From SAR116 cluster bacterium AG-321-K23 (GTDB taxonomy: Bacteria; Pseudomonadota; Alphaproteobacteria; Puniceispirillales; Marisalimonadaceae): a stretch of DNA of 50,913 nucleotides. The notes beneath the pieces were generated by a model. It was not told where the DNA came from, made no database searches, and saw only the letters and a list, made by a program, of their open reading frames with translations. The position numbers and the translations under genes are program-made. Positions 29,432 to 50,851 of this stretch are shown here, one piece after another; the stretch's first letter is position 1, and each line of letters begins with the position of its first letter. The DNA is taken from positions 1 through 50,913 of the forward strand of contig QBXO01000012.1 of assembly GCA_003284565.1 (NCBI GenBank), given 5' to 3'.

Positions 29432-30619
29432 ATGACAAAAGTTATACATCTTTTTCAATTATTTGACGGATTTTACATGAATGTTGTCGATAAATTAACA
29501 AGTCCGTCTGAACAAAATAAATCTACATTAGACAAACTAAGTAAAATGATTGATGGCGAAAGTCCGGCGACAAAGTCAATGAAAAATCTAATTGCCATGG
29601 TTTCTCAAACAGATAGTACTGCATTAATTTTAGGTGAAACAGGTACTGGCAAGGACATTGTTGCTCAAGCTATTCACAAATGTTCTAATAAAAAAGGTCC
29701 CTTCATTACCGTAAATTGTGCCGCAATTCCTTCTGAGTTACTAGAGTCAGAACTTTTTGGACATGAAAAAGGTTCATTTACAGGGGCAGACAAACAAAGA
29801 AAGGGAAGGTTTGAACAATCTAGTGGCGGGTCTCTTTTTCTTGACGAAATTGGGGATATGCCCCTACCTCTTCAAGCCAAACTTTTGAGAGCAATTGAGA
29901 GTAAAACTATACAGAGAGTTGGAGGTGCACAAGACATTAAAATAGATTTGAGATTGATTTGTGCAACACACAGAGATCTTGAAAAAAAAGTTGAAAGTGG
30001 TGAATTCCGTGCAGATTTATTTTTTAGAATAAATGTCTTACCAATCAATGTTCCTTCTTTAGCTGAAAGAAGAACAGATATACCTAGTCTTCAAAAAACA
30101 TTATTAAATAATCTAAAAGCCGATGAAAGACAAAAACCAATTTTTACACCAGATGCTATTACTGCACTCTGCAAACATAATTGGCCAGGCAATGTTCGTG
30201 AGTTAAAAAACGTAATAGAAAGAGCTTGTATAATTTTTCCTGGCAAAGAAATTACAAGCACTAACGTTTACCAAAATTTACTAAGATTAAAAGTCCCAAC
30301 AGTCGCCGAAGAACAAGAAGCACTTTGGGACATGACATCTGATTTAAGCGGAATAGATAACCTTGAAGAAAATAGCTTTACTAGTAGTCCTGAAGATTAC
30401 TTGCCACATGCTAAAAATTATAAAAATTGGTTTTCTTTTTATGATGAAATAGATTTAAGAAGACATCTTCAGGATGTTGAAATTGTTTTAATAGAAGAGG
30501 CACTTGAAAAAACAAATAACAAGGTGGCTCTGGCGGCAGATAAATTAAAATTGCGAAGAACAACCTTAATTGAAAAAATGAAAAAGTATTCAATCAACGT
30601 AAATCAAAGTATTGACTAA
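29432..30619 (+). CDS. fleQ: FleQ-like sigma-54 activator lacking the N-terminal regulatory domain
   Basis: A 395-residue activator. Walker A is GETGTGKD at residues 68-75, and the sigma-54 contact loop is GSFTGA (114-119), a variant of GAFTGA. NWPGNVRELKNVIERA follows. A linker of about 80 residues leads to a C-terminal Fis-type helix-turn-helix (KVALAADKLKLRRTTLIEKM) that closely resembles FleQ/FlrA. Only about 50 residues precede the AAA+ domain, so the usual N-terminal domain of about 130 residues is absent. The start at 29432 has no good ribosome binding site; an ATG at 29477 is possible. It is transcribed away from flbD. Confidence 0.87.
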   Translation: MTKVIHLFQLFDGFYMNVVDKLTSPSEQNKSTLDKLSKMIDGESPATKSMKNLIAMVSQTDSTALILGETGTGKDIVAQAIHKCSNKKGPFITVNCAAIPSELLESELFGHEKGSFTGADKQRKGRFEQSSGGSLFLDEIGDMPLPLQAKLLRAIESKTIQRVGGAQDIKIDLRLICATHRDLEKKVESGEFRADLFFRINVLPINVPSLAERRTDIPSLQKTLLNNLKADERQKPIFTPDAITALCKHNWPGNVRELKNVIERACIIFPGKEITSTNVYQNLLRLKVPTVAEEQEALWDMTSDLSGIDNLEENSFTSSPEDYLPHAKNYKNWFSFYDEIDLRRHLQDVEIVLIEEALEKTNNKVALAADKLKLRRTTLIEKMKKYSINVNQSID

Positions 30620-33895: not shown

Positions 33896-33911
33896 TGGCA
33901 TAACAATTGCA
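33896..33911 (+). promoter_or_regulatory. Sigma-54-type promoter for flagellin 2
   Basis: The plus strand reads TGGCATAACAATTGCA, with GG at 33897-33898 and GC at 33909-33910, ten bases apart. It lies about 35 bases upstream of the flagellin 2 start codon. Flagellins 1 and 3 lack this and instead have sigma-28-like sites. Confidence 0.88.
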
Positions 33912-33944
33912 GTGTTTTCCTACGAAAATAATTTGGAGATTGAT

Positions 33945-36237: not shown

Positions 36238-39200
36238 TTATCCTTGAAGAAGAGCTAATAAGTTTTGCTTAGATGCATTTGCCTGAGCTAACATTGAAGT
36301 TGCTGCTTGTGACAAAATCTGAGCTTTCGTCAGATTAGATGTCTCCTGAGCAAAATCAGCATCTTGAATTCTTGAATTAGCAGCTTCAGTATTAACTTTT
36401 AAAGTAGTTAAGTTACTGATTGAAGCATCAATTCTATTCTCGACAGCACCAAAAGATGATCTAAATAGAGCAACTTGTTCAATTGCTTTATCAATCAAAG
36501 ATAGTGATGAATTTGCTTCAGCAAGAGTACTTACTGATAAATTTGTACCAGATACTTCTTGAGATGTACTCTGTGTCTGGACACCCATTTTCTGTAAGAT
36601 TGTCTCAGTAGTTCCAAATGTGCCATCATTCTTAACTGCCATAGTTGCATCATTATCTTGTGCGACAGATTCTATTTTAATGACTTCATCTGTGTTGTTA
36701 GACAACGTTAAGTTACCCCTACCTGTGAATTGATCAGCTACCTGAACAATACCGAAGGCTAACTTAGTAGATGTCGGATCAGCACTAGAGGAAATACTTG
36801 CAACTGTTTTAAACACTTTAGTACCAGTTACAGAACCATTTTGTGTAGGACCAGTTATTTCTTCTGTTATTGTTCTACCAAACATGTCAGTACCAGTGAC
36901 AGTTAGTGTAGCATTAGCACCTGTAGCATTATTACCTTCTGTTACAGTAATAAGTACGCCACCTAAATCAGCATTTACTTTAGCTGTTATAAGTGTGGCA
37001 GCCCCTGCACCAATATCTGCCTCAGCCATTAAGTGATCAGTGTCTACAGCTATAGTTTCACCGTTATGGTGACCTATTGAAACGGCAGATCCAGCTGTTG
37101 TAGTTGTAGTAACAGAAGTAACGTTTTTATAAACATTGCTGGAAAGAGCTTTTAAAGTACCACCCTCACCTCTTATTGTTTCTGAAACAGCATTACCAAA
37201 TACATCAGTACCAGTTATTGTGTAAGTTTCATCTGCAGATCCGTGTACACCACCGACCACAAAAACAGCAGTGTCTGTTTTACTGTAAGAAATAGAGCTA
37301 ACAGATTTAAATGTTTTTGTTCCGTTTGCTGTTCCACTTTGACTAGCACCTGCAAAAACATCAGTAATTGTATTACCATCCATATCTGTACCAGTAACTG
37401 TTACTGTTACATCACTTCCATCAGCGGTACCAGTTTCTGTTACACGTATCTGAACTCCATGTGCATGATCATTTGTAGCAGCAGTCAAAAGAGTAGCTGA
37501 TGTAGCACTAACAGCACTAGATGCAACAAATGAATCAGTATCTACAGCAGAATCAGCTCCATCGTGACCTGCATTTATTATAGATACTCTACTATTAAAA
37601 TCAGCAGTACTTGCTAAACTAAGAGTGCCTGGTGTTGTGATAGCCGCTGAAGCTTTTAAGAATGTAGCATTAGCAGCTGTTCCACGGATAACTCCATTAG
37701 ATAGAGAGGTACCATTAACATCTTTGTAAGCTAAAATAAAATCAGTATCACCTTGATGTGTTACTTGTATATCAACTCCAGAGGCACTAGATAATTTAAC
37801 GGCTCCATCAGATAATGCTTCTGCACGAACATCACCAACGTTTGCTGCATTAATCTTAGATACAATACCATGTAAACCAACAACAGTTGATATATCTACT
37901 TCTGCACCGTTGATAAAGAACTCATTTGTTGTACTTGGCATATTTGCAGTATTAAAAGCAACCTGGACTTCATTCTTAGCATTTGCAGTAACACCTGTTT
38001 CACTTGTCTTTGCATTAATAGCAGTAGCAATGGACTCAGCTGTACCACTTACAGATTCACCAATTAATACATCGTTAATTTTAATTTCATTAGCACTTAA
38101 ACGTGTTCCACTAACAGAAGCAGTTTCTATTTTACCTGATACACTTTGCTCATTGAAACCAATGGCATTAACATCACCAATAGTACCTAAACCATCAGTA
38201 TATCCATTAACTTCATTACCAGCTTCGATAGAAACGCCAGATCCGTCAACATTTTTAAGGCTTACAAAACCAGTATAAGTACCATTTGTAAAACCAACAT
38301 CACTTGAACCAGTACCAGCTACAATTATTGAAGAACCAGTAGTGTTTGATAATGTAATGGTATTATCACCATTTAAATCAGCAACAACACCAGAAACAGC
38401 TTGGTTTATGTTATCAACTAAACCTTCATATGAAGTTGCTAATTCAACTGTATTACTGTTAATTGTAAACGTATTAGTCATATTAAAAGTACCTTTAACC
38501 ACGCTTGTTAAAGAGTTGAATGCATCAGCTTCTGCACCATGAACACCAGTGTTCAAATTTATTGCATCAGCTAAAAGTTTAGCTTCATTTGCACCGGAAG
38601 CAGTAAGATCTGAAGCAAAATCTGAGGCAAATGCATTTTTACCATTAATTTTTACATCAGCTGCTGCGATAGTATGATGAGCTGAACTAAAGTTAGTAGT
38701 AGCAACACGCTCACTTGTTAAAAGCTTAACACCTTCAGAACCTTTTAAACCAAGAGATATAGAATCTGATTTTTGTAAATCAACTGCTAATGAATCTTGC
38801 TTATTAATTCCTATTTGAAAATTAACTGTTTTATTAGAACCATCTAAAAGATTTACATTATTAAAATGCGTATTTGCTGAAATATTATCAACTTCTTTTA
38901 TTAAAGCTGAAACTTCAGCTTGTATCATAGTTCTATCACTATTACTAAGAGTGCTATTACCAGCTTGTACAGCAAGTTCTCTTACTCTTTGAAGTATGTT
39001 TTCAACTTCACCAAGGGCACCTTCAGCAGTTTGTGTCATAGAGATAGCGTCATAAGAATTTCTTATTGCCACTCCTAAACTTCTAACTTGTGCTTCCATT
39101 TTACTACTAATAGCAGAACCAGCGGCATCATCTGCAGCTGAATTGATCCTTAAACCAGATGAAAGTCTGGTCATAGCATCATCTAGATCTCTGTTGACTT

Positions 39201-39258
39201 GAAGCATATTTTTTTGCGCTGTTAATGCTCCAATGTTTGTATTTATACTGTTAGACAT
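36238..39258 (-). CDS. Flagellin 3, giant flagellin
   Basis: A 1006-residue flagellin, about twice the usual size. N-terminal D0/D1: SINTNIGALTAQKNML and MTRLSSGLRINSAADDAAGS; C-terminal end: SRIQDADFAQETSNLTKAQI and ASKQNLLALLQG, all canonical. Residues about 170-560 are collinear with the surface domain of flagellin 1 (shared phrases NTITLSNTTG and IKINDV.IG). Residues about 575-845 hold three TGTD-type repeat units not present in flagellin 1. A sigma-28-like promoter lies upstream. Confidence 0.95.
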   Translation of the reverse strand: MSNSINTNIGALTAQKNMLQVNRDLDDAMTRLSSGLRINSAADDAAGSAISSKMEAQVRSLGVAIRNSYDAISMTQTAEGALGEVENILQRVRELAVQAGNSTLSNSDRTMIQAEVSALIKEVDNISANTHFNNVNLLDGSNKTVNFQIGINKQDSLAVDLQKSDSISLGLKGSEGVKLLTSERVATTNFSSAHHTIAAADVKINGKNAFASDFASDLTASGANEAKLLADAINLNTGVHGAEADAFNSLTSVVKGTFNMTNTFTINSNTVELATSYEGLVDNINQAVSGVVADLNGDNTITLSNTTGSSIIVAGTGSSDVGFTNGTYTGFVSLKNVDGSGVSIEAGNEVNGYTDGLGTIGDVNAIGFNEQSVSGKIETASVSGTRLSANEIKINDVLIGESVSGTAESIATAINAKTSETGVTANAKNEVQVAFNTANMPSTTNEFFINGAEVDISTVVGLHGIVSKINAANVGDVRAEALSDGAVKLSSASGVDIQVTHQGDTDFILAYKDVNGTSLSNGVIRGTAANATFLKASAAITTPGTLSLASTADFNSRVSIINAGHDGADSAVDTDSFVASSAVSATSATLLTAATNDHAHGVQIRVTETGTADGSDVTVTVTGTDMDGNTITDVFAGASQSGTANGTKTFKSVSSISYSKTDTAVFVVGGVHGSADETYTITGTDVFGNAVSETIRGEGGTLKALSSNVYKNVTSVTTTTTAGSAVSIGHHNGETIAVDTDHLMAEADIGAGAATLITAKVNADLGGVLITVTEGNNATGANATLTVTGTDMFGRTITEEITGPTQNGSVTGTKVFKTVASISSSADPTSTKLAFGIVQVADQFTGRGNLTLSNNTDEVIKIESVAQDNDATMAVKNDGTFGTTETILQKMGVQTQSTSQEVSGTNLSVSTLAEANSSLSLIDKAIEQVALFRSSFGAVENRIDASISNLTTLKVNTEAANSRIQDADFAQETSNLTKAQILSQAATSMLAQANASKQNLLALLQG
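36720..37540 (-). repeat. TGTD-type protein repeats in flagellin 3
   Basis: Three units read VTVTGTDMDGNTITDVFAG, YTITGTDVFGNAVSETIRG and LTVTGTDMFGRTITEEITGP, each followed by a TFKSV/YKNV/FKTV-S-I strand. The first and third are preceded by a similar segment starting with VDTD. The block looks inserted into a flagellin 1-like surface domain. Confidence 0.82.
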
Positions 39259-39379: not shown

Positions 39380-39395
39380 TGGTATGTTACTTGCA
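39380..39395 (+). promoter_or_regulatory. Sigma-54-type promoter for TPR-methyltransferase
   Basis: The plus strand reads TGGTATGTTACTTGCA, with GG at 39381-39382 and GC at 39393-39394. It lies about 33 bases upstream of the start codon at 39427, facing away from flagellin 3. It places this enzyme in the flagellar regulon. Confidence 0.82.
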
Positions 39396-39426: not shown

Positions 39427-41517
39427 ATGGACGATCTTAATAATGATAATTTTGAAGATAATTTTGAAAGTGAAATAAAAAAAATTGAAATTTTTATAAA
39501 TAGTAAAAATTATAAAGATGCTTTGAAAAATTGTTTAAATCTTGAAAAAAAATATCCATTTTCAGCTGAATTATTTTTTATGATTGCTCGGGTTTACAAA
39601 GATTTAAGTCAATTTGATTTGGCAGAAACATACTATAATAAGGTTCTTTCAGTAAATCCAGATCATCCAGATACATTGAACAATTTAGGAAATATTTTAA
39701 ATGCAAAAGGACGTGCCGAAGAAGCAATTAATTTATTTCAAAAAGTAATACTTCTTGTACCCACTGCGCCTCAACCCTATTCAAACATTTCACAAAGTTA
39801 TTTAATTTTAGGAGATTATAAAAAAGGAATTAAGTTTTCTCAGAAAGCAATAGAATTAAGTCCCAATTTTACTGATGCGTATTTAAATTTAGCTAAGTCT
39901 CAGATTAAAGGTAATTTGTACAAAAATGCTTTGGATACAGTTTCAAAAGGCTTGGATTTTGACCATAAAAATCAAGAGCTGTTGAAACTTTTTACTGATG
40001 TCTTAATTTCTAGCCCTATTTCGGAATATGATTTTGCTTTAGATAAAAAGATAGAGCTCCTATTTGACAATAACAAATTTGGACAAATATTTCCAATCCT
40101 ACTTTTGAGGATAGAAAATCATCCAGATATTAGTGCGTTATTATCAAAAATTGACAATATTATTCACACAGAAGACATTATAAGAGTTGTTGAAAAGGTA
40201 GTTAAAATTCCATTTTTTGTTGAGATACTATCTTCCGGATTAAATTCAAGCATAAAAATTGAGAAGTTATTAACAGTATTAAGAAAAGGAATTTTATACA
40301 ACAAGAATAATCTTAGTAGTAACAAAAGCGTTATTATGTTTCAAAAATCTTTAACCATTCAGTGTTTTAATAATGAATTTGCATTCCCTCAAACTGACGA
40401 AGAGAATAAAATTATTCAAAAATTAGAAAAAGATTTAAAAACTAAAGCAGATGAAAATCAAGTTATACAAAGCCTAGATTTACTTTGTTTGTCAAGTTAC
40501 AAACAAATAAGTGATTTTCATTGGATAAGAAGTATATTGTATGAGGAAGAAATAGAAGAAGTTTTTAAATTAGTTGTTTCTGAACCTATGCTGGAAAGAA
40601 GTATTACACCCTTACTAAATTCAATTTCAAATATTGAAGATGAAACCTCTAAATTGGTTGAAGCACAATATTCCAATTCACCTTATCCAAGATGGAGCTA
40701 CATCCCTAAAAATGGTGAAGTAACACTTGATTTTTTTGTTAAAACAAAAAATTTGAAGTTAGCAAAAAGTATAGAAAATTTACAAAATCCTCCAGAGATA
40801 TTAATTGCTGGATGTGGTACAGGCGTTCAATCAATTTCAGTTGCTCAACAATTTCCTAGATCAAATGTTTTGGCATTAGATTTAAGTAAAAGCAGTTTAG
40901 CTTTTGCCTTAAGAAAAACAAAAGAATTAGGAATTTCAAATATTAATTATGTTCATGGTGATATTTTAGACCTACATAAAATCAATAAAAAATTTGACGT
41001 GATTCATTGTACTGGCGTACTTCATCACATGAGATCACCAACTCAAGGATTAGAATGTTTAATTGAAACATTAAAAGAAGACGGATTAATGAAGCTGGGA
41101 CTTTATAGCAGTATTGCAAGAACAGAAATTAATAAAGTTCGAAATTTAATTAAAAAAGATAAAATTCCATATACTAATAATAGTATTCATTCTTTCAGAC
41201 AAAAAATGATAAATGATGATCATAATTTAATTAATGAATTTAATACTAGTATTGATTTTTTTTCATTAAGTGGTTTTAGAGATCTATATTTCAATATTCA
41301 GGAAACTCAGTATACTATTCCAGACATTAAAAAAATAATTAATGATTATAATTTAAACTTTTGCGGATTTGAATTTCAACATAATCTCCATGATATTCCT
41401 TTTAAAGAAATGTTTCCGGATACTAATTCAGAACAAATATTAGAAAATTGGGATGTTTTTGAAAAACATAATAAAAATACTTTTTTTAATATGTATCAAT
41501 TCTGGATACAAAAATAA
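39427..41517 (+). CDS. TPR protein with class I methyltransferase domain
   Basis: A 696-residue protein. Residues about 15-190 are TPR repeats (NPDHPDTLNNLGNILNAKG is one). A poorly conserved middle follows, then EAQYSNSPYPRWSYIP and a SAM-dependent methyltransferase with motif I LIAGCGTGVQS near residue 458, an acidic LALDLS strand and HCTGVLHHM. I recognise this TPR-PYPRW-methyltransferase layout from other bacteria; the substrates are not established. Sigma-54-type promotion and position beside flagellin 3 suggest methylation of flagellin or of its glycan. It is convergent with the SGNH-TPR gene. Confidence 0.85.
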   Translation: MDDLNNDNFEDNFESEIKKIEIFINSKNYKDALKNCLNLEKKYPFSAELFFMIARVYKDLSQFDLAETYYNKVLSVNPDHPDTLNNLGNILNAKGRAEEAINLFQKVILLVPTAPQPYSNISQSYLILGDYKKGIKFSQKAIELSPNFTDAYLNLAKSQIKGNLYKNALDTVSKGLDFDHKNQELLKLFTDVLISSPISEYDFALDKKIELLFDNNKFGQIFPILLLRIENHPDISALLSKIDNIIHTEDIIRVVEKVVKIPFFVEILSSGLNSSIKIEKLLTVLRKGILYNKNNLSSNKSVIMFQKSLTIQCFNNEFAFPQTDEENKIIQKLEKDLKTKADENQVIQSLDLLCLSSYKQISDFHWIRSILYEEEIEEVFKLVVSEPMLERSITPLLNSISNIEDETSKLVEAQYSNSPYPRWSYIPKNGEVTLDFFVKTKNLKLAKSIENLQNPPEILIAGCGTGVQSISVAQQFPRSNVLALDLSKSSLAFALRKTKELGISNINYVHGDILDLHKINKKFDVIHCTGVLHHMRSPTQGLECLIETLKEDGLMKLGLYSSIARTEINKVRNLIKKDKIPYTNNSIHSFRQKMINDDHNLINEFNTSIDFFSLSGFRDLYFNIQETQYTIPDIKKIINDYNLNFCGFEFQHNLHDIPFKEMFPDTNSEQILENWDVFEKHNKNTFFNMYQFWIQK

Positions 41518-41531
41518 TAGATTAGTATATA

Positions 41532-41551
41532 TTAAGATTTACAAATCTTAA
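41532..41551. terminator. AT-rich hairpin between convergent TPR genes
   Basis: A perfect inverted repeat, TTAAGATTT-AC-AAATCTTAA, lies in the 50-base gap between convergent genes and is followed by ATTTT on the plus strand. It could be a weak bidirectional terminator. The stem has only one GC pair, so stability is low. Confidence 0.4.
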
Positions 41552-41567
41552 ATTTTCAGATTAAAAA

Positions 41568-43616
41568 TTAAAGTTTTGGTGCAACAAACAAATAAGATTG
41601 CCAAGCCTCTAACATTGCTTCTTGTGTGAGATGGTTTGAATCTAAATGATAAATACCATTAGAAAATCCATCACCTCTATCAGTCAGACTGTGGAGATCT
41701 AAAAATGAATATCTAAATTTATGTGCCTTTTTCATCAATATATGGTTAAAATCTCTAATTAAACTTATTAATTCTTGTAACTTTAAGGTTGAGATTTTAT
41801 CAGTATTAATATTTGGGCAGGGCACACCTTGAATAGTAATATCATGTTCTTTCGTTGCATTTAATTTTTGAATATTATTAAGGTAATTAGTAATAGTGTC
41901 ATTGATTAATTTAAACTTATTTTTTTGTTGATTTTTTTTTATATGATCAAGAATTCCAGTATCAATTCTACAATCAATTTCGCCTATAGATAAAAGAATG
42001 TCACTTTTTTTAGGTAGTGATTGTAAAATATTTTTAAATCTAAACTGATATTTATTTAAATTAGAATTTCCTAAATGGAATTGTTTACATCCCATAATAA
42101 GGCTAGCCTTACATAAAAATATTCCTTTAGAATTTTTGATTTTTAAGCCATGACTTACAAGTGAGTGACTTTCGCCAACTACGTGGAGAGTTTTTTCATC
42201 AACATTATTTTGGGTTATTTCATTTTCATTATTTTTTAGCAAATAAGAAAGGTAGATATGGTAAACTTTTTCATTTTTAAAAATTTTGTTATTTAAATTC
42301 TGAATTAGAATTGATAATAATAAATATTTATTACAATTGACTATATCCCCTTCTAAATAACTTAAAATAGCTAAAATAACTTGCGATCTTAATCCATAAT
42401 TATTTTTATCCAGATTTTCTAATTGTTTAGAATAAAATTTTAAGTCATTCTCTTTATTTAGGAAATGAAGCAAAGTTAACAAATTCCATAAAATTTTAGG
42501 ATTATTTGAATTTAAACTAATTGCTTTTTTATAACTTACTTCTGCCTCTTCGAGAAGACTTAAGTTTTGGTAAGTGTTAGCTAAATTCATGTATGCTTCA
42601 CTATAATTTGGTTTTAAATTAATCGCCCTTTTAAAATTTTCTTGTGCTTTCGTATGATTTTTCTTTTCTTGACAAATAACGCCTAGATTACAATATGCTT
42701 CAGCATAATCATCTTTTATTTTTATTGCCTCTATATAATTATTCTCAGCTTCATCATAATTTTCAAGTTTTTGATTACTAATTCCTAAGTTGTAAAAAGC
42801 TTCAGCATAATTTGGTTCTAATAAGGTTGCTTTTAAATAACTTTCTTTTGCTTCTGAAATTTTATCAAGTTTAACTAGAGCGTTGCCAAGATTATTGTAT
42901 ATAGCGGCTTGTTTTGCATTTAGTTTTAAAGATTGTTTATATAAAGAAACTGCTTCGTCTAATTTTCCAAGTTCTTGACAAACGGTTCCTAAATTACATA
43001 TTGCTTGGTAATAATCAGGTTTAATATTTATGGATTTTCTATAATTAGTTTCAGCCTCTTTTGATTTTCCATTTTTTTGCTGAACAATTCCAAGATTACA
43101 CAAAACAGCATAATCGTTAGGCTTTAATGTTAAAGCTTGTAAAAAGTTTGTTTCAGCGTCATTAAATTTATTAAGTAGATGTTGTACGTTACCTAAAATG
43201 ATAAAAAGTTGTGGATTGTCCGACTTAAAAAATATAGCTTTTTTGAAAGTTAAGGCAGCATCCTCCAATCTACCAAGTTCTTGCTGTAAAGCACCCAGAT
43301 TTATATAAGATTGAATATGAGAGGGATCTGTATAAATGGCCATTGAATAGCTATTTATAGCATCATCAAATTTTCCTAACTTATGTTGAATAACACCTAA
43401 ATTATATTTTGCTTCAGCATCCTTTGGTGCGAAAAAAACAGATTTTTTACCAGCTTCAAGAGCTTCTGACAATCTACCGTTTTGTAACAAAATTGCAGCT
43501 AAAATTTTCCAGATAAGTTGATTTGACGGACTGGTTTTTGCAATAACTAAGGCAATTTTCTCTGCCTGCGTATATCTACCATTTTTATAATGGTCTATGA
43601 GTGTATTTAGTTCCAT
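41568..43616 (-). CDS. TPR protein with SGNH-hydrolase-like C-terminal domain
   Basis: A 682-residue protein. Residues 1 to about 385 contain roughly eleven 34-residue TPR units (for example NLGIVQQKNGKSKEAETNYR). The C-terminal 205 residues look like an SGNH/GDSL hydrolase: block I VGESHSLVS near residue 480, a block III-like LSIGEIDCR near 546, and the terminal DSNHLTQEA near 660 that would give the Asp-His pair. Such enzymes remove or transfer acyl groups, often on glycans. It is last in the leftward run from fliD. Substrate unknown; I infer action on the flagellar glycan. Confidence 0.78.
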   Translation of the reverse strand: MELNTLIDHYKNGRYTQAEKIALVIAKTSPSNQLIWKILAAILLQNGRLSEALEAGKKSVFFAPKDAEAKYNLGVIQHKLGKFDDAINSYSMAIYTDPSHIQSYINLGALQQELGRLEDAALTFKKAIFFKSDNPQLFIILGNVQHLLNKFNDAETNFLQALTLKPNDYAVLCNLGIVQQKNGKSKEAETNYRKSINIKPDYYQAICNLGTVCQELGKLDEAVSLYKQSLKLNAKQAAIYNNLGNALVKLDKISEAKESYLKATLLEPNYAEAFYNLGISNQKLENYDEAENNYIEAIKIKDDYAEAYCNLGVICQEKKNHTKAQENFKRAINLKPNYSEAYMNLANTYQNLSLLEEAEVSYKKAISLNSNNPKILWNLLTLLHFLNKENDLKFYSKQLENLDKNNYGLRSQVILAILSYLEGDIVNCNKYLLLSILIQNLNNKIFKNEKVYHIYLSYLLKNNENEITQNNVDEKTLHVVGESHSLVSHGLKIKNSKGIFLCKASLIMGCKQFHLGNSNLNKYQFRFKNILQSLPKKSDILLSIGEIDCRIDTGILDHIKKNQQKNKFKLINDTITNYLNNIQKLNATKEHDITIQGVPCPNINTDKISTLKLQELISLIRDFNHILMKKAHKFRYSFLDLHSLTDRGDGFSNGIYHLDSNHLTQEAMLEAWQSYLFVAPKL

Positions 43617-43648
43617 ATTTTATAAATTAACTTATTTTGACCACACAA

Positions 43649-45382
43649 CTAAAAATCCGGTTGTAAATCAAATGAAATTATAATTCGTTCTGAGTCTGTC
43701 GAAAATGGAATAGTTCTATGATATAATGACGATGGGAAAAAAATTATATCTCCAAGTTTTGGGTTGTGGATTATTTTGGAGGATTGAGTAGTATAGCAGT
43801 TTGGTCCAGATAGATTAAATTCTATGGCTCCCTCATTGTTTTCTAACGGTGGAACAACCTTTAGGTAAATGACTCCACTTAACCAACCAAGAGGATGAAT
43901 ATGTGAAGTTTGGTAACCTTGTTCTTTAAGTGTAACATACCATCCTTTTATGTTTTTTTTCTTGGGCCATTTATCAATTAAAGTACAAGAATGATTTTTA
44001 AATTTTTCATAATAATTGTTAATTTCCCTGATTAAAATTGATTTTAAGTAATCTAAATTAGGTTTAGGGTTTTTAAACAAATCACCATTAGATTGAAATC
44101 CTTTTTTTAGAGGACGAGAAGGATTTTCCCATATTGAAGGAATATAGTTTAATTCATTTATAATTTTAGAAGTATAATCATTTATATCTTTACAATAATT
44201 AGTAAGATTTGAATAATATATGAAGTTCAGCGGATCTGGACAAAATTTGTTTGCAGTTGGCTTTTTTTCCTTTTCTTCAATAAAAGATGCAAATGCAGCG
44301 ATATTCAAATTAAATTCATCAATTTGGGAATTTTTCTGAATTCTATTATAAATTTCTTCAGTTTGTCCCATCAAATATAAACATTCAAGAGCTTTAGCTC
44401 GCGTTTCTTCTGTGTTATAAAGGTCAAAATTTGCTAATGCTTCTTTATAATTTTTTTTATTAAATAAGCGTGTCCCTTTATTAATAATGATAGATGAAAT
44501 ATTGGGGTCTATTGAAAGCATTTTCTTATAACATATCTCACTCTCCTCAAACTTTTTAAGAGCTTGAAATGAACGACCTAATTCTGAAAAGGCTTCACCA
44601 TATTCAGAATCTAACGATATTGCTTTTTGAAGTGATTTCATTCCTTCTTTATATTTTCCAAGATCATTTTGGATTAAGCCTATATTATAATGAGAAACAG
44701 CTAAATTTGGTTCTATTTCCAATGCCTTTTTATAGCTTAACTCAGCATCCTCAATTCTTTTAAAATCTTTAAGTAAAGATCCAAGATTACTATGTGCCAC
44801 TGAAAAATCTGGCTTAAATTTAATAGCCTTTCTATAGTTAACTTCAGCTTCGTATGATCTATTAAGGTCAGCGTACAATACAGCTAAATTATAATATGCT
44901 TCTGCATATTCTTCTTTTAATTCAAGAGATTTTTTATAGTGAAACTCTGCATCATCAAAATTTTCAATTTCTTGATAAAGATTTCCTAAATTACATAAAC
45001 TTTCATGATCATTTGGATTACATTGAAGTGCTTTTTTGAATGAGATTTCTGATTTTAGATAATCTTTTAATTCAAGATATGCAGCTCCAAGAACCTTCCA
45101 AGCTAAATTATAATTTTGAAATCTTTCTGTAATAGCTATAGCTAAATGAACTGTCTTTTCATATTCCCCATTTTCATAACTAACCATCATTTCCTTGATT
45201 TCAAATTCTGATGGTAAAATGACCTCTGTTGTTTTATCGACTAAATTTTCAAGAGTTTTTCTTATTCTTACATTTTGGGGATATTTTAGTAGTATATTTT
45301 TTAGAATTATTTTAGCACTATCAATCTCACCTTTTTTAATTAATTTTTGTGCTTTATCAAAATTTAATCCAAGTACCGACAT
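43649..45382 (-). CDS. TPR protein with 2-oxoglutarate/Fe(II) oxygenase-like domain
   Basis: A 577-residue protein. A short N-terminal repeat (KAQKLIKKGEIDSAKIILKN) is followed by about eight TPR units to residue 330. The last 200 residues resemble the putative 2OG-Fe(II) oxygenase family with the pattern SHIHPLGWLSGVIYLKV near residue 494 (iron-binding His), PKLGDIIFFPSSLYHRTIPF near 550 (second His) and ERIIISFDL (Arg for 2-oxoglutarate). Hydroxylation of a protein or glycan is the likely chemistry. It has its own sigma-54-like promoter at 45426-45441. Confidence 0.8.
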   Translation of the reverse strand: MSVLGLNFDKAQKLIKKGEIDSAKIILKNILLKYPQNVRIRKTLENLVDKTTEVILPSEFEIKEMMVSYENGEYEKTVHLAIAITERFQNYNLAWKVLGAAYLELKDYLKSEISFKKALQCNPNDHESLCNLGNLYQEIENFDDAEFHYKKSLELKEEYAEAYYNLAVLYADLNRSYEAEVNYRKAIKFKPDFSVAHSNLGSLLKDFKRIEDAELSYKKALEIEPNLAVSHYNIGLIQNDLGKYKEGMKSLQKAISLDSEYGEAFSELGRSFQALKKFEESEICYKKMLSIDPNISSIIINKGTRLFNKKNYKEALANFDLYNTEETRAKALECLYLMGQTEEIYNRIQKNSQIDEFNLNIAAFASFIEEKEKKPTANKFCPDPLNFIYYSNLTNYCKDINDYTSKIINELNYIPSIWENPSRPLKKGFQSNGDLFKNPKPNLDYLKSILIREINNYYEKFKNHSCTLIDKWPKKKNIKGWYVTLKEQGYQTSHIHPLGWLSGVIYLKVVPPLENNEGAIEFNLSGPNCYTTQSSKIIHNPKLGDIIFFPSSLYHRTIPFSTDSERIIISFDLQPDF

Positions 45383-45425
45383 ACTTTATCCAATATGTTT
45401 CATATAATTTAATTAATTATAAAAG

Positions 45426-45441
45426 TGCAAAAGTGATGCCA
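45426..45441 (-). promoter_or_regulatory. Sigma-54-type promoter for TPR-oxygenase and TPR-SGNH genes
   Basis: On the minus strand the site reads TGGCATCACTTTTGCA, with GG at 45439-45440 and GC at 45427-45428. It lies about 45 bases upstream of the TPR-oxygenase start, in the gap behind the GT41 gene, giving the last two genes an independent flagellar-type promoter. Confidence 0.83.
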
Positions 45442-45446
45442 AAATT

Positions 45447-47612
45447 TTAGCGTGTTAAGCTCTTGAGTAAATTTTCAAACTTTTTTGTGTAAGCTTTAGA
45501 GTCGCATAAATTAGATTTAATTAATTTACTTCTCAAGCCGTCAGTTAGTTTGTTCATTTTGATTTTATTTACACTGTAATGAACTGCTTTTTCTATATAT
45601 TCTTTCCTTGAGTTCACAATAAACTCATTAAAATCTAAATTTTTTAGTATGGAATAACCTACCCTACTTCTGTGACTATCACCATTAAGACATAATACTG
45701 GAACATTCATCCATAAAGCCTCAAATGTTGTAGTTGTTCCATTATATGGGAATGTATCAAGAGCTAAATCAATTGAATTATATGTCTCAAGGTGTTGTTT
45801 TCTTGAATTACTCCAACTCATTAATACAATTTTATCAGACGAAACTCCGTATTTAGCAAATTTTTCTAAATAGATCTTTCTTGTAAAATTAGAACGTAAT
45901 TGTTTGTTTTTTAGGATAATTTTTGAATTATCAATTCTTTTTAAAATCTCAGACCAACATTCTATTACTTCGTCACTCATTTTTGACAAATTATTAAAAC
46001 TACCAAATGTGAAAGAGTTATCTTCAAAAATAGTATTCTTGTTAATTTCTGCATCCTCTTCTGAACTAAAACAAATAAATGAGTTCTCTAATCTTAATAA
46101 TTTTTCAGTATATAAATGATCGTCAACGCCTTCAGGATCTGTAAAATTGTCAACAATTCTATAATCTATTTTGTTCAAACCAGTAGTATTGGGGTAACCT
46201 AACCATGTTATTTGAATTGGAGATGGTTTCATCGCAAAAACTGGTAATCTATTTCCATCAGTATGTCCAGAAAGATCAACCAAAATTTCTATATCATTTT
46301 GTTTTATCAAATTATAAAGTTGAGTATTACTTGCTGAGCCTACATTAAACCACTTGTCAACAGATGATTTAATTCTTTTTGTTACATGATCATTATGAAA
46401 TGATGCATTGAAACAAGTTATAACAAATTCATCTTTATTATAATTCTTTAATAAAGGTTCTAAAAAATAAGTTACAGAATGTTGATGTAAATCTGCAGAT
46501 ACAAAGCCGACATTTATTTTTTGATTTTTAGACTTATTCTCAATTAATTTTTCAGAATATCCTTCTCCAAATGACTTCTCCAAAAAAGTTCCGAATTTTT
46601 TATGTATTTCAAAAACATTTTCTTTGGAGTTGTTTGATGAATAATTACTCATCAAAAGAAGATTCGAAATTGCTGTATTTTTATTAGGGTTAATTTTTAG
46701 AGCTTTATTGATATAATATTCCGCTTCGGTAAATTCTCCAATATCACTTAATAAGGACGCATAATTTAAAATTGCTTCAACAGAATTTTGGTCAATATTT
46801 AACGCTTTTTTGAGACATATTAGTGAGTTTTCGTAATCTCCAGTTTTAAGATACAATATACCATGATTAATAAATGCTGGTAAATAAGTAGGATCAATTT
46901 CAATTGCTCTAAAAAAACACCTATGCGCTTCTTGTAAATTTTTTGCCTGTTGAAAACTATATCCCATATTTGTAAAAATTACTGCGTTGTTTGGAGATAT
47001 TCTTAATCCATTTTTAAAACATTCAATTGCTTCTTCATAAGCGCCTAGAGAGGCATAAGAGCAACCTAAATTTCCATAGGCATTGTATGAATTTGGTTCA
47101 ATTTTTAATATATCTTTATAAACTTGGATTGAATCATCAATATAACCAACATCGGACAATGCTGCTCCTTTATTTAATCTAGCTTCAATGGAGTTTGGAT
47201 TTAATTTAAGGGCTAAGTCAAAATATTTTTGAGCATTTTTATAGTCATTTTTTTCCTTGTAAAGACACCCCATCGTTACCAAAAGCTTTTCGTTTTTATT
47301 AAATTTTTGAAGTAAATCCGAAGCTTTATTAAAAGCCTCTTGAATCAAGTTTTGTTGATATAAGAAAATAACCTCATTAACTGCCTGTGTCTCATAAGGA
47401 TCATAATTATTTATTTTTTTATCATCTTTTTTTGGGAATGAACTTGATTTAGGTTCATCACTGTAAACATTTAAATTCTCTAGAAAATTTTTAATTCGCG
47501 GGTTGTTTGGATAAACCCTCAGAACTTTTTCTAAAATATTCTGTGCTTCTTGCACATCACCCTGTTTTAATACTTTTTTTGCTTTTAAAAGACTAATATC
47601 AATAGCTGTCAT
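45447..47612 (-). CDS. TPR O-GlcNAc-transferase-like glycosyltransferase (GT41, SPINDLY-like)
   Basis: A 721-residue protein. Residues 1-50 hold a degenerate repeat also seen at the start of the TPR-oxygenase, residues about 75-325 hold seven or so TPR units, and residues 366-715 form a GT41 catalytic domain: VGFVSADLHQHSVTYFLEP (catalytic-type His near 378), LVDLSGHTDGNRL, QITWLGYPNTTGL, and DTFPYNGTTTTFEALWM for nucleotide binding. GT41 enzymes add a sugar (GlcNAc or fucose in known cases) to Ser/Thr. Caulobacter FlmG, a TPR glycosyltransferase for flagellin, is the best functional parallel. It lies 18 bases downstream of the methyltransferase. Confidence 0.9.
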   Translation of the reverse strand: MTAIDISLLKAKKVLKQGDVQEAQNILEKVLRVYPNNPRIKNFLENLNVYSDEPKSSSFPKKDDKKINNYDPYETQAVNEVIFLYQQNLIQEAFNKASDLLQKFNKNEKLLVTMGCLYKEKNDYKNAQKYFDLALKLNPNSIEARLNKGAALSDVGYIDDSIQVYKDILKIEPNSYNAYGNLGCSYASLGAYEEAIECFKNGLRISPNNAVIFTNMGYSFQQAKNLQEAHRCFFRAIEIDPTYLPAFINHGILYLKTGDYENSLICLKKALNIDQNSVEAILNYASLLSDIGEFTEAEYYINKALKINPNKNTAISNLLLMSNYSSNNSKENVFEIHKKFGTFLEKSFGEGYSEKLIENKSKNQKINVGFVSADLHQHSVTYFLEPLLKNYNKDEFVITCFNASFHNDHVTKRIKSSVDKWFNVGSASNTQLYNLIKQNDIEILVDLSGHTDGNRLPVFAMKPSPIQITWLGYPNTTGLNKIDYRIVDNFTDPEGVDDHLYTEKLLRLENSFICFSSEEDAEINKNTIFEDNSFTFGSFNNLSKMSDEVIECWSEILKRIDNSKIILKNKQLRSNFTRKIYLEKFAKYGVSSDKIVLMSWSNSRKQHLETYNSIDLALDTFPYNGTTTTFEALWMNVPVLCLNGDSHRSRVGYSILKNLDFNEFIVNSRKEYIEKAVHYSVNKIKMNKLTDGLRSKLIKSNLCDSKAYTKKFENLLKSLTR

Positions 47613-47630
47613 TAAAATTTCTCATTTTTA

Positions 47631-48140
47631 TTATTTTTTAGCTATAATATTTAAGCTTATGGGAAAACCATAAGGCTGATAACTACTTGTATCGTCAAAT
47701 AAACCAAAGTTTTTGACTTTTTTGAGGTCAGAAAAACCAACTTTTGTTAAAAATATACTCATAAAATCAACATTCCATCCAAAATAATGGAAATCATATT
47801 GATCAATCTGACCACCATAAATTATTCTCATTATGTGGAACTTTATATCTCTAGAATAATAAGGACTTAACATTGTATGACAAAGAACATCTAAATCCGG
47901 AACTGATATATAAAAATTACCATTTTTCTTCAATACTCTATAAACCCCTGCAAGAGTGTGTTCTATATCTTTTTGTCTTACATGTTCTAAGACGTGACTT
48001 GCATAAATTTCTTCAATACTCTCATTTTCAAACTGAGACAAATTACTTAAATCTCCAATAAGGTTATTTTTTGTTTTTTGTTGCGTATTTAATATTGTCC
48101 ACCCATCTTTTTCTTGTTCACCACCAATATGTAATTTCAT
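47631..48140 (-). CDS. Small SAM-dependent methyltransferase
   Basis: A 169-residue protein of the predicted class I methyltransferase type often found in sugar and surface polysaccharide clusters. The pattern starts KLHIGGEQEKDGWTILN, then IEEIYASHVLEHVRQKDIEH and LKKNGNFYISVPDLDVL. The first glycine motif is LHIGG rather than the usual LNIGCG. It starts behind GGAGAAAAACT and follows fliD by 18 bases, so it is co-transcribed with the cap gene. Likely substrate is a nucleotide sugar or attached glycan. Confidence 0.83.
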   Translation of the reverse strand: MKLHIGGEQEKDGWTILNTQQKTKNNLIGDLSNLSQFENESIEEIYASHVLEHVRQKDIEHTLAGVYRVLKKNGNFYISVPDLDVLCHTMLSPYYSRDIKFHIMRIIYGGQIDQYDFHYFGWNVDFMSIFLTKVGFSDLKKVKNFGLFDDTSSYQPYGFPISLNIIAKK

Positions 48141-48158
48141 AGTTTTTCTCCAGTTTTT

Positions 48159-50789
48159 TTAGTCGTCTTTGTTCATGGCTTCAAAGAGGTTTGTTAGATA
48201 TTCACCTGTTGATTTAAGACTTGTTACGGCTTGTTCCATGCTTGTAAACTGTTTGACATATCTGTCTCTTAAGGATGCCATTTGGTCGTTTAAATCAATC
48301 AATAAAGCTGATTGGTCAGTGACTTCTTGGTTAATAGTTGTTTCTCGAGTAGATAATTGTCCACTAGAGCTATCAAGAGTATCGGTTAAAAATGTAGTTA
48401 GTTTTTCAATAAGGCTTTGACCATAGAACACGGTAGCGTCTGCACCCAAACCTGAATATTTTACTTTTAAACCAGCTGCATTACCTGATGATATTGTAAA
48501 TGTTTTATTTGTTACATCGGCTGACATAGTTACACTATCTAATGTAGCAGAACCATTAACGCCCGTCGTTGTTATGCCAGCTCCTGTGAAACCCATAGTA
48601 ATAGACCCTGCGGTATTAGCTGAAGGGGTTATAGATGAAATTGTCTGAAACGTTTTAGATCCGAGAACTGTAGCATTAGCTGCAGGTCCTGTTATTACTT
48701 CTGTTTGGGCATTACCAGACAAGTCAGTTCCAACAACTGTGAATGACTTGCCACTTTCGTCACCACCAGCACTTACTATTGATGGACGTTTTCCTGTAAG
48801 ATCAACAAACGCTGATTTTGTACCAATGTTTACGACTGATGCTGCAGCATTTGATGCAATTTGTGTAATATCCTTAAAAATTTTTGTACCAACAACACTA
48901 CTCCCAGCTGTAGGACCAGTTATAGTTTCAGTTTGAGATGTCCCATTAATATCTGTTCCTGTAATAGTAAATGTAATAGATGATAAATTATTTGAACTGG
49001 AAATAGTTACAAAAGAATTTAAATCTGTAGCTGATCTAGGATTTGTTGCAGTTGTTTGAGCGCCATCAAGTGTAAAATTACCTGAGCTACCAAGTGTTTC
49101 ATTATCAACTAATCCATCAGCATCTGTTGTAGTAACTGAAGCTCCATTTAAAGTTAAAGCAGTACTTGCAGTTCCTGATTGTGAGGCGCCAATATTATCA
49201 GCATCAGTTGTTCCTTCAAATTTTAAGAATCCATCTAAATTACTTCCTATTGCGTTAACTACGATTGATGAGGATGATCCTATTGATCCGGAGGTAATAG
49301 AATAACTTCCATTGGAATGAGTAACAACAACAGACTTTCCAGCAGCAGTTAATGTACTATCTGCATTAATCGCCGTTTGAATAGCTGTTGCGAGTGCAGC
49401 TTCAGATGTATAGTGAGCAGCTGGCACACTTACTGAACCCGATTGCGTACCATCAACTGTTACCTGGATAGTATTATTTGAGGCAGTAACCTCTGGGGAA
49501 GTATCACTACTTACTAGTCCTGTAAAAGCACCAGATACATATGCTGTCATTGCAAACGCGTAAGAACCAGCAACAGGTTTAGAAATGCTACCTCCACTTA
49601 CTGAAAGCAGACTGGATGATGATGAATACATTGAATTAAAGATCGCATCTAAGGAAGTAGGGTTGTTTTTCAGTTCATTTTCTAATACGGTTGTGTTTAG
49701 GCTCAATAAACCGTCTTTTTCAGTTCTGACCCCTAAATTTGAGAGATATACACCATTTGCACCAAATCCTGACAATTGAGAAGAAGTAAGTGATTTTAAC
49801 TGATTTTTAATATTCTTAACTACAGGATCATCAGATAAATCACCCGCATCTTCAGTTGAGGACCCTCTGAAAGTTTTTTCATTCAAAAGTGTTCTTGCAT
49901 CATTAACTGCTGTTACAAAAGCTTGTAAATTTGTAGTTGCTGCACTTGTATCTACTGAACCTGTTAGATTAACTGGCGTATCAGTTCCACTTATAGTCGT
50001 TGATGCTAGTAAATTTACATTATAACCGGTAAAAAGATCAGAAATAGTATTTGAAGATCTAGTTAATGATATTCCATCAACTGTAAAAGAAGCGTCCGAT
50101 CCAGCAAGTTTCTGTTTTGTGCCATTCGTTGTTGTATTATCTATGGTTGATAATCCAGATCCAGACGGGCTTTCTGTAGCAGTAATTCTTAATGCATTTG
50201 CTTTTCCGTCTTGTGATTTTAATACAAGTGTAAATGTACCATCACCTGCACCTAACACACTGGCTGTAACTCCATAATCTAATGCATTTATTTTATCTTT
50301 TAATGACTCAAGGGTGTCTGTTTCAAGAACTGTGAGTGATTTAGATGAAACTGTAGCACTAGTAACGAAACTTCCAGAAGACCAGTCTCCTCTTTCAAGA
50401 AGTAAACTACCAGCACCAACAAGCGATGTATTAGAAGTATAATCTTCAAACGCTAAAGTTTGACCTTTCGCTAATGATGAAACACTAATACTTGAGTTTA
50501 TAGCTACTGCTGTAGATGGATCAGAAATTGTTGCACTTACCGCTGAACTAGTTGAACTTACTTTTAATGAGGTATTTCCAGTTAGCGTATTCAAAGAGGT
50601 AGAAAGTTTAGATAATGCACTTTTTATTTCACCAATCGCAGAAATAGCAGTATTTCTTGCATTAATTTTAGATTGTATTTGATTTTCTTGGGGAACTTGC
50701 TCTGCTTCAACAAGACTATCAACGATTTGAGTAATATTTAACCCACTACCACCTTGATTGATTGCGCTTAAATAATCTACACTCGTCAT
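48159..50789 (-). CDS. fliD: Flagellar filament cap protein FliD with enlarged surface domain
   Basis: An 876-residue cap protein that folds flagellin at the filament tip, nearly twice the usual 450-650 residues. The N-terminal GGSGLNITQIVDSLVEAEQ and the C-terminal coiled coil (RETTINQEVTDQSALLIDLN, ending SLKSTGEYLTNLFEAMN) are diagnostic. FliD middle-domain motifs lie in between. Residues about 590-735 carry two TGTD-type repeat units shared with flagellins 2 and 3. Overlapping sigma-54 and sigma-28-like promoters lie upstream. It leads an operon of modification genes. Confidence 0.93.
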   Translation of the reverse strand: MTSVDYLSAINQGGSGLNITQIVDSLVEAEQVPQENQIQSKINARNTAISAIGEIKSALSKLSTSLNTLTGNTSLKVSSTSSAVSATISDPSTAVAINSSISVSSLAKGQTLAFEDYTSNTSLVGAGSLLLERGDWSSGSFVTSATVSSKSLTVLETDTLESLKDKINALDYGVTASVLGAGDGTFTLVLKSQDGKANALRITATESPSGSGLSTIDNTTTNGTKQKLAGSDASFTVDGISLTRSSNTISDLFTGYNVNLLASTTISGTDTPVNLTGSVDTSAATTNLQAFVTAVNDARTLLNEKTFRGSSTEDAGDLSDDPVVKNIKNQLKSLTSSQLSGFGANGVYLSNLGVRTEKDGLLSLNTTVLENELKNNPTSLDAIFNSMYSSSSSLLSVSGGSISKPVAGSYAFAMTAYVSGAFTGLVSSDTSPEVTASNNTIQVTVDGTQSGSVSVPAAHYTSEAALATAIQTAINADSTLTAAGKSVVVTHSNGSYSITSGSIGSSSSIVVNAIGSNLDGFLKFEGTTDADNIGASQSGTASTALTLNGASVTTTDADGLVDNETLGSSGNFTLDGAQTTATNPRSATDLNSFVTISSSNNLSSITFTITGTDINGTSQTETITGPTAGSSVVGTKIFKDITQIASNAAASVVNIGTKSAFVDLTGKRPSIVSAGGDESGKSFTVVGTDLSGNAQTEVITGPAANATVLGSKTFQTISSITPSANTAGSITMGFTGAGITTTGVNGSATLDSVTMSADVTNKTFTISSGNAAGLKVKYSGLGADATVFYGQSLIEKLTTFLTDTLDSSSGQLSTRETTINQEVTDQSALLIDLNDQMASLRDRYVKQFTSMEQAVTSLKSTGEYLTNLFEAMNKDD
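48590..49020 (-). repeat. TGTD-type protein repeats in FliD
   Basis: Two units read FTITGTDINGTSQTETITGP and FTVVGTDLSGNAQTEVITGP, each followed by a VxGxKxFxxI-x-I strand (VVGTKIFKDITQI, VLGSKTFQTISSI). The match to the flagellin 2 and 3 units is plain by eye, including the ITGP turn. Confidence 0.83.
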
Positions 50790-50819: not shown

Positions 50820-50846
50820 ATTACGACATTTTAAATGCAATTTTTA
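50820..50846 (-). promoter_or_regulatory. Sigma-28-like promoter for fliD
   Basis: On the minus strand TAAA (50846-50843), fifteen bases, then GTCGTAAT (50827-50820). The TAAA element lies inside the sigma-54 site at 50836-50851, so the two promoters overlap. The -10-like box differs from those of flagellins 1 and 3 only in its last two bases. Confidence 0.6.
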
Positions 50847-50851
50847 TGCCT
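50836..50851 (-). promoter_or_regulatory. Sigma-54-type promoter for fliD operon
   Basis: On the minus strand the site reads AGGCATAAAAATTGCA, with GG at 50849-50850 and GC at 50837-50838, ten bases apart. It lies about 48 bases upstream of the fliD start and would drive fliD, the small methyltransferase and the GT41 gene. Confidence 0.8.

Follow-up and report, generated by a model that had tools for sequence, protein, structure and literature searches.

A hypervariable slot between fliD and flagellin genes in SAR116-cluster bacteria holds tetratricopeptide-repeat enzymes that probably modify flagellar proteins

The DNA analyzed here is a 50,913-nt stretch from SAR116 cluster bacterium AG-321-K23 (contig QBXO01000012.1 of assembly GCA_003284565.1, positions 1-50,913; hereafter, the window), and its subject is a six-gene island bounded by fliD on one side and by the gene for a 1006-aa flagellin, FlaA, on the other. 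This island is probably (ca. 0.68) a flagellar protein modification island of separable, cytoplasmic enzymes docked by tetratricopeptide repeats (TPRs), the catalytic heads of which act directly and largely independently. The flagellar role is argued from the position between fliD and flagellin, the recurrence of TPR enzymes in this slot, sigma-54-type sites, and heads of the protein-modifying kind; a first-pass annotation had also called the locus a flagellar modification island, and that part of it is supported by the same features. Gene content, slot turnover, promoter-like sites, active-site residues, and predicted folds were observed directly, and from them we infer substrates, chemistry, docking, and promoter activity.

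The nearest named relatives of the window are marine SAR116-cluster alphaproteobacteria, and its own genome assembly (1.8 Mb) is 69% complete. A minus-strand row runs head to tail from fliD (filament cap, 876 aa, 48159..50789; PF07195 at 112 bits and PF02465 at 53 bits, i.e. FliD_C and FliD_N, both above cut-off) through a small methyltransferase-like gene (169 aa, 47631..48140), a TPR-GT41 glycosyltransferase (721 aa, 45447..47612), and a TPR-2-oxoglutarate oxygenase-like (2OG; PF13759) putative protein hydroxylase (577 aa, 43649..45382) to a TPR-SGNH-fold protein (682 aa, 41568..43616; 10 TPRs by script HMM). The gaps between consecutive genes are 18, 18, 64, and 32 bases. Facing this row is a plus-strand TPR-methyltransferase (696 aa, 39427..41517), the start of which is 168 bases from the divergent gene for FlaA (36238..39258, minus strand; PF00669/PF00700). 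In the Pfam scan, TPRs were well above cut-off in all four large enzymes. The six open reading frames (ORFs), their order, and their orientation had been described correctly in the first-pass annotation, and "led by fliD" holds for the minus-strand row. The TPRs and the GT41, 2OG, methyltransferase, and fliD identities were upheld by Pfam and the SGNH identity by fold; the case for the small methyltransferase was weaker than had been claimed.

The same slot was studied across the genus, in which FliD_N was present in 26 of 40 genomes. The fliD neighborhoods were read with ORFs typed by script, and 24 fliD loci passed the script score (the census omits G030, in which fliD adjoins flagellin and the slot is empty, and G004, in which fliD is cut). 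Seventeen of these loci reach a flagellin; seven stop at a contig end. Five of the 17 bounded slots are empty (L075, L076, L077, L079, and L088), and the 12 others hold genes; each occupied slot has at least one TPR protein, and nine different head combinations are represented. The SGNH head is the sole enzyme in two slots (L060, L068), the methyltransferase stands alone in one (L087), GT41 alone in two (L066, L067), two 2OG genes accompany a methyltransferase in another (L084), and the full set is found in the window. The recurrence of the same gene kinds in the slot indicates that the island is more than a chance assembly. In the nearest relative, G002 (L059), the window's row is present minus the 2OG gene and its promoter-like site, at 82% identity for the SGNH head and 92% for the methyltransferase head; the SGNH gene lies 14 bases behind GT41, at the place where the window has the 2OG gene with its own sigma-54-type site, so that the gain or loss of one cassette is directly visible. 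The fliD-flagellin slot is thus hypervariable in the genus, and the different sets at the same spot in related species suggest that the flagellum is decorated differently in each.

The heads were also tallied across the genus from genome-wide searches plus the loci read, with only strong hits retained. To be counted as heads, TPR-methyltransferase hits had to reach 1e-60 and SGNH hits 1e-15 (six fell short, at ca. 1e-4 to 1e-3), and the many non-TPR 2OG hits of ca. 200-240 aa were set aside. On this basis, 11/19 TPR-methyltransferases, 5/6 SGNH heads, 5/7 TPR-fused 2OG heads (after removal of a 221-aa 2OG ORF in G019), and 17/39 GT41 genes (fragments included; the GT41 search covered the genus minus G061-G063, and the placement tally omits G037) were no more than 10 kb from fliD or flagellin. 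Two GT41 genes tallied as contig-end adjoin the flagellar sigma-54 regulator, and eight genes belonging to the four heads are located near DUF1800/DUF1501 or RNaseG (site S3). TPR proteins with other heads were seen in selected loci, and counts of them are therefore biased. The Pfam scan returned no match for the unclassified TPR heads in L080, L098, and L063, among which are presumably, judging by motifs, a GT9-like head and a second 2OG-like head. Giant TPR proteins of 1455-1564 aa with two GT41 units were observed in the fliD slots of two loci (L085:2787-7481 and L091:6449-10816).

Sigma-54-type (-24/-12) sites were located by motif scan before fliD (AGGCAT-N5-TTGCA, 50836..50851, minus strand, 46 bases before the ATG), TPR-2OG (TGGCATCACTTTTGCA, 45426..45441, minus strand, 43 bases before the ATG), and the TPR-methyltransferase (TGGTATGTTACTTGCA, 39380..39395, plus strand, 31 bases before the ATG). 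A scan of the window with the sigma-54 consensus TGGCACG-N4-TTGCW, allowing up to two mismatches, gave 8 matches where 3.2 were expected (3 of 100 shuffles reached 8), and the sites before the TPR-methyltransferase and TPR-2OG were among them. In the genus loci, a strict motif that fits fliD and FlaB (GGCAY-N5-TTGCW) was found upstream of 23/24 fliD genes, 11/44 slot TPR genes, 3/33 other TPR genes, and 8/383 other ORFs (slot TPR genes v. other ORFs, p=1.7e-7), with the reservation that sister genomes are not independent in this test. A relaxed motif (GGYAY-N5-TTGCW), which was widened after the slot genes had been seen, was found before 19/44 slot and 6/33 other TPR genes (slot TPR genes v. 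other ORFs, p=3.7e-15) and before 13 of 18 slot genes having an upstream gap of at least 100 bases. When slot TPR genes were sorted by upstream gap, a site was present in none of the 15 with gaps below 40 bases and in 20 of the 31 with gaps of 40 or more (20/46 overall); identical upstream sequences and L065 were kept in the latter count and removed from those out of 44. The rpoN gene was detected in 29/40 genus genomes, including that of the window, and the sigma-54-dependent (AAA+) regulator at 29432..30619 (plus strand; label from the reading of its translation) is a possible activator of the island's promoter-like sites. The motif preceded 11 of the 35 flagellins that were read; because the majority lack it, FlaA is probably under another sigma factor. 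A scan for sigma-70 promoters and terminators gave nothing above shuffles.

Three of the four heads (GT41, methyltransferase, and 2OG) resemble protein-modifying enzymes. The GT41 catalytic domain scored 174.8 bits against PF13844 (cut-off 25), and its closest solved chain was SPINDLY (SPY; 1.3e-68), followed by TtOGT and OGT. The active-site residues of SPY discussed in PMC9715652 are H495, S496, N661, K665, H728, Y744, and T748, with Y744 being tied there to donor choice. All seven are identical in the window enzyme (H378, S379, N540, K544, H607, Y623, and T627), including the Tyr equivalent to Y744, and the rows of this type form one clade with 100/100 support. The gmd gene was above cut-off in 12 of 13 genomes with the SPINDLY-type clade as compared to 6 of 24 without it (p=1.1e-4); mean completeness was 73 v. 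75%, sister genomes do not count as independent here, and other polysaccharides also depend on gmd. The window GT41 is of the SPINDLY type, and its predicted donor is a GDP-6-deoxyhexose. Pseudaminic acid, the donor under the FlmG model, appears less likely for it: the NeuB family occurs in 31/40 genus genomes (that of the window included), but its listed places are off the contigs with fliD slots, and the association of gmd with the GT41 clade makes gmd the better fit for this enzyme. For other heads this donor may still be used, PseF-like genes that fall below the model cut-off being in or near the slots of L091 and L125. In L066, L067, and L085, gmd, an fcl-like gene (under cut-off), and DegT were observed between fliD and a ClC channel gene, by TPR-GT41 genes.

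The head of the TPR-methyltransferase (Methyltransf_12 at 64.6 bits, cut-off 30) has protein-lysine methyltransferases as its best, third, and fourth solved matches: PDB entries 8hkr (E 2.1e-16 over 226 residues), 5doo (1.5e-9), and 5dnk (2.3e-7). We take 8hkr, from its search listing, to be M. tuberculosis Rv2067c, and 5dnk and 5doo (protein lysine methyltransferases 1 and 2) to be Rickettsia enzymes. Other methyltransferases also match, mostly more weakly. Motif I (GCGTG) is invariant in 15/15 of these heads. By sequence the window head is a relative of protein-lysine methyltransferases; lysine methylation is a putative activity. The 2OG head (PF13759, 73.7 bits, cut-off 27) was modeled by AlphaFold at a pLDDT of 87 as a double-stranded beta-helix. 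Ranked by Z, its fold matches were two uncharacterized chains (3bvc and 2rg4), then the P. putida P4H (also solved with EF-Tu), OGFOD1, and PHD2, the last three being protein hydroxylases, and the fold thus resembles that of protein prolyl hydroxylases; the antibiotic enzyme HygX was also near the top of the Foldseek list. The middle regions of the flagellins contain only 2-7 prolines, and the target residue may therefore not be proline. For the SGNH head, the Pfam scan gave no significant match (GDSL, E=0.036); the AlphaFold model (mean pLDDT 91.5) has an SGNH/GDSL fold, the best match of which is a sialate O-acetylesterase. The catalytic candidates are S483, D659, and H662 of the full-length protein. 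From 78 usable head stretches, 48 were aligned with that of the window, and S38 and H217 (head numbering) were invariant in the 49 sequences, with D214 in at least 90%; the sequences had been retrieved by two patterns that included the Ser motif and GEIDCR. Since the nearest folds are esterases, many of them acting on sugars, the target of this head may be an attached sugar instead of the protein itself.

We propose the following scheme. Each TPR array would bind newly made flagellin and/or FliD before export, by analogy to FlmG. The SPINDLY-type GT41 would then add an O-linked sugar of the 6-deoxyhexose type to Ser/Thr from a GDP-sugar, the methyltransferase would methylate side chains (probably Lys), the 2OG enzyme would hydroxylate a residue, and the SGNH head would trim or add acyl groups, with sigma-54 turning on the island genes together with fliD. 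Individual heads, in some cases accompanied by a sigma-54-type site, come and go between close relatives, and lineage-specific surface chemistry would result.

Apart from the limits of the gmd and promoter comparisons given above, several observations weigh against this reading. Outside the genus, the SGNH head was followed in named genomes (the best 80 of 96 matches, at 79 loci, in most of which it is TPR-fused). Within this sample, flagellin or FliD was nearby in 7/14 SAR116 loci (many on short contigs), 5/41 other loci, and 0/24 loci of Prochlorococcus, which to our knowledge has no flagella; in 13 of those 24, other TPR-enzyme heads were nearby. The TPR-methyltransferase head was found at 1e-25 in 100/385 alphaproteobacteria (that of the window included), and in other Alphaproteobacteria flagellin or FliD was present in 4 of the 40 loci read (those read were the 42 strongest, apart from two in G384, of 72 hits at 1e-40 or better outside the window's genome; a number of them are at contig ends). 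The second genus site by DUF1800/DUF1501, where a relaxed sigma-54-type site precedes 3/9 TPR genes, indicates that the kit is not flagellum-specific. In the genus tally, 17 GT41 or methyltransferase rows and one 2OG row lie at contig ends without placement (for GT41 alone, 13/39). In place of the usual HxD/E, the 2OG head reads HxH, so the iron triad HxD/E...H is absent; HxH, H, and R196 are invariant in 9/9 heads, and the solved relative 2rg4 likewise reads HIH, which makes HxH probably a PF13759 family trait. In the SGNH head, the block III Asn is absent, with GEID taking the place of GxND in the window protein as in each of the 49 rows; GEIDCR having been one of the two retrieval patterns, this invariance is partly by construction. 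Judged from the model, this is a probable esterase/acyltransferase head with an SGNH-like fold and not a canonical SGNH/GDSL member. The small methyltransferase (one generic Pfam model only, 33.8 bits, cut-off 21.2) is degenerate: its motif I is IGGE, as compared to GCG in the distant relative L146, and the acidic residue is replaced. It was therefore not counted as a proven enzyme, and from its sequence it is possibly inactive or a partner protein.

The TPR arrays also count against a common docking plan, which the first-pass annotation had assumed. Only one pair of window arrays aligns over 250 aa or more, at 26.8% identity (background median, 28.5%), and in 54/78 cases the best match to a TPR array comes from a protein of the same head class, with ca. 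30% expected at random. One shared docking arm within the window is thus not supported, as array identity is at background level and arrays mostly follow head class. In G001 and G022, which are nearly alike at the locus in question, adjacent TPR-GT41 and TPR-unclassified genes have arrays 49-54% identical over 460-529 aa, the pattern expected if an arm had been copied to a new head. In FlmG, according to PMC7591256, the TPR arm brings the enzyme to flagellin, and by this analogy it is plausible that each window array docks on flagellin or FliD. Reading of the N-termini by eye revealed no evident signal peptide, consistent with cytoplasmic action before export.

The heads therefore form a general kit that has been attached to flagella repeatedly, not exclusively; a kit confined to the flagellum was rejected because the same heads occur in Prochlorococcus and in many loci without flagellin or FliD. 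The five flagellar SGNH loci outside SAR116 are in a zetaproteobacterium, Gallionella (FliD), a betaproteobacterium, Desulfurivibrio, and a member of the Porticoccaceae (a short flagellin-like ORF). The zetaproteobacterial locus (FliS-FliD-flagellin-GT41-SGNH-sulfotransferase) is a comparable island in a different bacterial class; at L155:2029-16653, FliS, FliD, and flagellin are followed by TPR-GT41, TPR-SGNH, TPR-sulfotransferase, and a 1385-aa GT41 protein. In other families of Alphaproteobacteria, TPR-methyltransferase heads neighbor flagellin or FliD at L214, L215, L226, and L229. Prochlorococcus loci L182, L184, L186, L187, and L189 have TPR-SGNH genes beside other TPR heads, e.g. 2OG and methyltransferase. 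Within the genus, the DUF1800/DUF1501 site recurs with TPR enzymes in L095, L106, L072, L073, L100, and L123, some of which also have HisD-Maf-RNaseG. No flagellar neighbor of the TPR-GT41 in L065, from another family, was found within the 19 kb read.

A wider proposal, which we advance tentatively, is that of a combinatorial, lineage-specific code of protein modification on SAR116 flagella: stand-alone TPR-docked enzymes would be exchanged into a slot that belongs to the flagellar regulon of sigma-54, each enzyme alone would suffice to act on flagellin and FliD, and the same kit would work on other proteins in non-flagellated marine bacteria. Close relatives would then differ by one chemistry for each gene gained or lost, with a SPINDLY-type fucosyl-like transferase, a lysine methyltransferase, a hydroxylase, a deacylase, and probably others as the enzymes.

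The first-pass annotation had ordered the chemistry, with a sugar being added and the product then methylated, hydroxylated, and (de)acylated. As an explanation of the island, one such ordered pathway, in which GT41 places a sugar on flagellin for decoration by the methyltransferases, 2OG, and SGNH enzymes, appears rather unlikely. It would fit the enterobacterial islands, which have sugar methyltransferases and GT41-methyltransferase fusions (PMC4875605), the sialate O-acetylesterase-like fold of the SGNH head, and the gmd, fcl-like (under cut-off), and degT genes found across fliD in three related loci. However, heads occur in genomes with no detected GT41 (methyltransferase in 5, 2OG in 3, and SGNH in 1; among these, G014 is 99% complete with its two genes not placed at the flagellum, and the others are 52-83% complete), SGNH or methyltransferase is the only enzyme in some slots, and the methyltransferase and 2OG heads are nearest to protein modifiers. 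Another, unrecognized glycosyltransferase could supply the sugar in such cases. Although most of these genomes are incomplete, heads found singly and where no GT41 was detected make a fixed order on one glycan unlikely.

That the substrate is the cap protein FliD and not flagellin is unlikely. The co-directional row is led by fliD and probably co-transcribed with it, given gaps of only 18-64 bases behind it; the middle region of FliD is 32% Ser/Thr, and the presence of GT41 in the slot is associated with a long FliD (9/9 v. 6/11, p=0.04, from a hand-made table with one FliD partial). Against this, TPR enzymes are also found beside flagellins away from fliD (L070, L092, L094, and L125), and FlmG acts on flagellins (PMC7591256). 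FliD, FlaB, and FlaA were moreover observed to have a common Ser/Thr-rich module with TGTDxxG repeats (FlaB v. FliD, 41% identity over 153 aa, E 2e-19), so that both FliD and FlaB may be targets, and cap and filament may display the same target surface. Ser and Thr make up 24.3% of the FlaA middle region, and FlaA and FlaB are each probably substrates of the island. The idea that the TPR enzymes modify surface polysaccharide or other surface proteins, with the flagellar locus a mere insertion hot spot, is decidedly unlikely, for although the same heads cluster in Prochlorococcus and by DUF1800/DUF1501 and most loci read outside the genus lack flagellin, fliD-type sigma-54 sites precede slot TPR genes, TPR proteins are in all 12 occupied slots, and relatives of the GT41, methyltransferase, and 2OG heads act on proteins.

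The remainder of the window is a flagellar cluster comprising fli genes, two AAA+ regulators, three flagellins, and a FliS-like gene; genes outside the Pfam scan were labeled by reading their translations. FlaB (753 aa) is at 33912..36173 on the plus strand; its start was called at GTG 33912, directly behind a sigma-54-type site (window 33896-33945), and translation probably begins instead at ATG 33945. The third flagellin (663 aa, 30616..32607, minus strand) was recognized from its translation and locus. In L070, L092, and L125, TPR enzymes lie between the third flagellin and the sigma-54 regulator; the same place is empty in the window. A 2469-2471 aa ORF with segments similar to FliD was seen in L076:10916-18331 and L083:8132-15541; it adjoins a 426-aa gene that we take to be FlgL-like and may encode a hook-associated protein of giant size.

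Most of what is known of flagellin modification concerns glycosylation and, as a separate matter, lysine methylation. In the slot described here, enzyme heads of four kinds are built to a common TPR plan; their turnover can be seen when sister species are compared, and promoter-like sites of the fliD type accompany them. Two questions become testable: whether TPR arms serve as addresses by which different protein-modifying enzymes reach a single substrate, and whether ocean bacteria thereby change the surface seen by phages and grazers. For a bacterial enzyme of the SPINDLY type, the locus also offers a likely substrate and a predicted donor (GDP-6-deoxyhexose).

Among known systems, FlmG of Caulobacter crescentus, a TPR flagellin O-glycosyltransferase (PMC7591256), is likewise alphaproteobacterial, cytoplasmic, and flagellum-linked, and the window GT41 has a like domain order (N-terminal TPR, C-terminal glycosyltransferase), the likeness being one of architecture. 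FlmG needs pseudaminic acid, according to that paper, whereas the window head is SPINDLY-type and goes with gmd (GDP-sugar), and the window slot differs further in having several non-glycosyltransferase heads on TPR arms and in its hypervariable place between fliD and flagellin. SPINDLY, the plant GT41 protein O-fucosyltransferase (PMC9715652), has the same TPR-plus-GT41 build and seven of seven compared active-site residues in common; the window enzyme is bacterial, in a flagellar context, and its GDP-sugar donor is a predicted one. The bacterial protein-lysine methyltransferases 8hkr, 5dnk, and 5doo are alike in the head, and the window enzyme differs from them by its TPR fusion and flagellar locus. 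The first-pass annotation knew of no described system with this set of heads. GT41-methyltransferase fusions have in fact been described in the enterobacterial flagellin glycosylation/methylation islands (PMC4875605), for which that paper reports a variable insert with GT41 (COG3914, SPINDLY-type), methyltransferases, FkbM, DegT, and sugar genes, in combinations that vary by strain as in the SAR116 slot; FliB is named there as the flagellin lysine methylase. That insert lies between fliC and fliA, the window insert between fliD and flagellin and mostly as TPR fusions, and the main text of PMC4875605 mentions none of tetratricopeptide, TPR, hydroxylase, oxygenase, SGNH, or GDSL. For the other two heads, our literature searches returned no described set with TPR-2OG and TPR-SGNH heads, nothing that combined flagellin with tetratricopeptide, 2OG, and methyltransferase, and nothing that combined flagellin glycosylation with tetratricopeptide, methyltransferase, and marine. 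The island thus belongs to a known kind, that of flagellin modification islands and TPR flagellin transferases, and what is new is the mix of heads, the turnover of single cassettes, and the promoter link.

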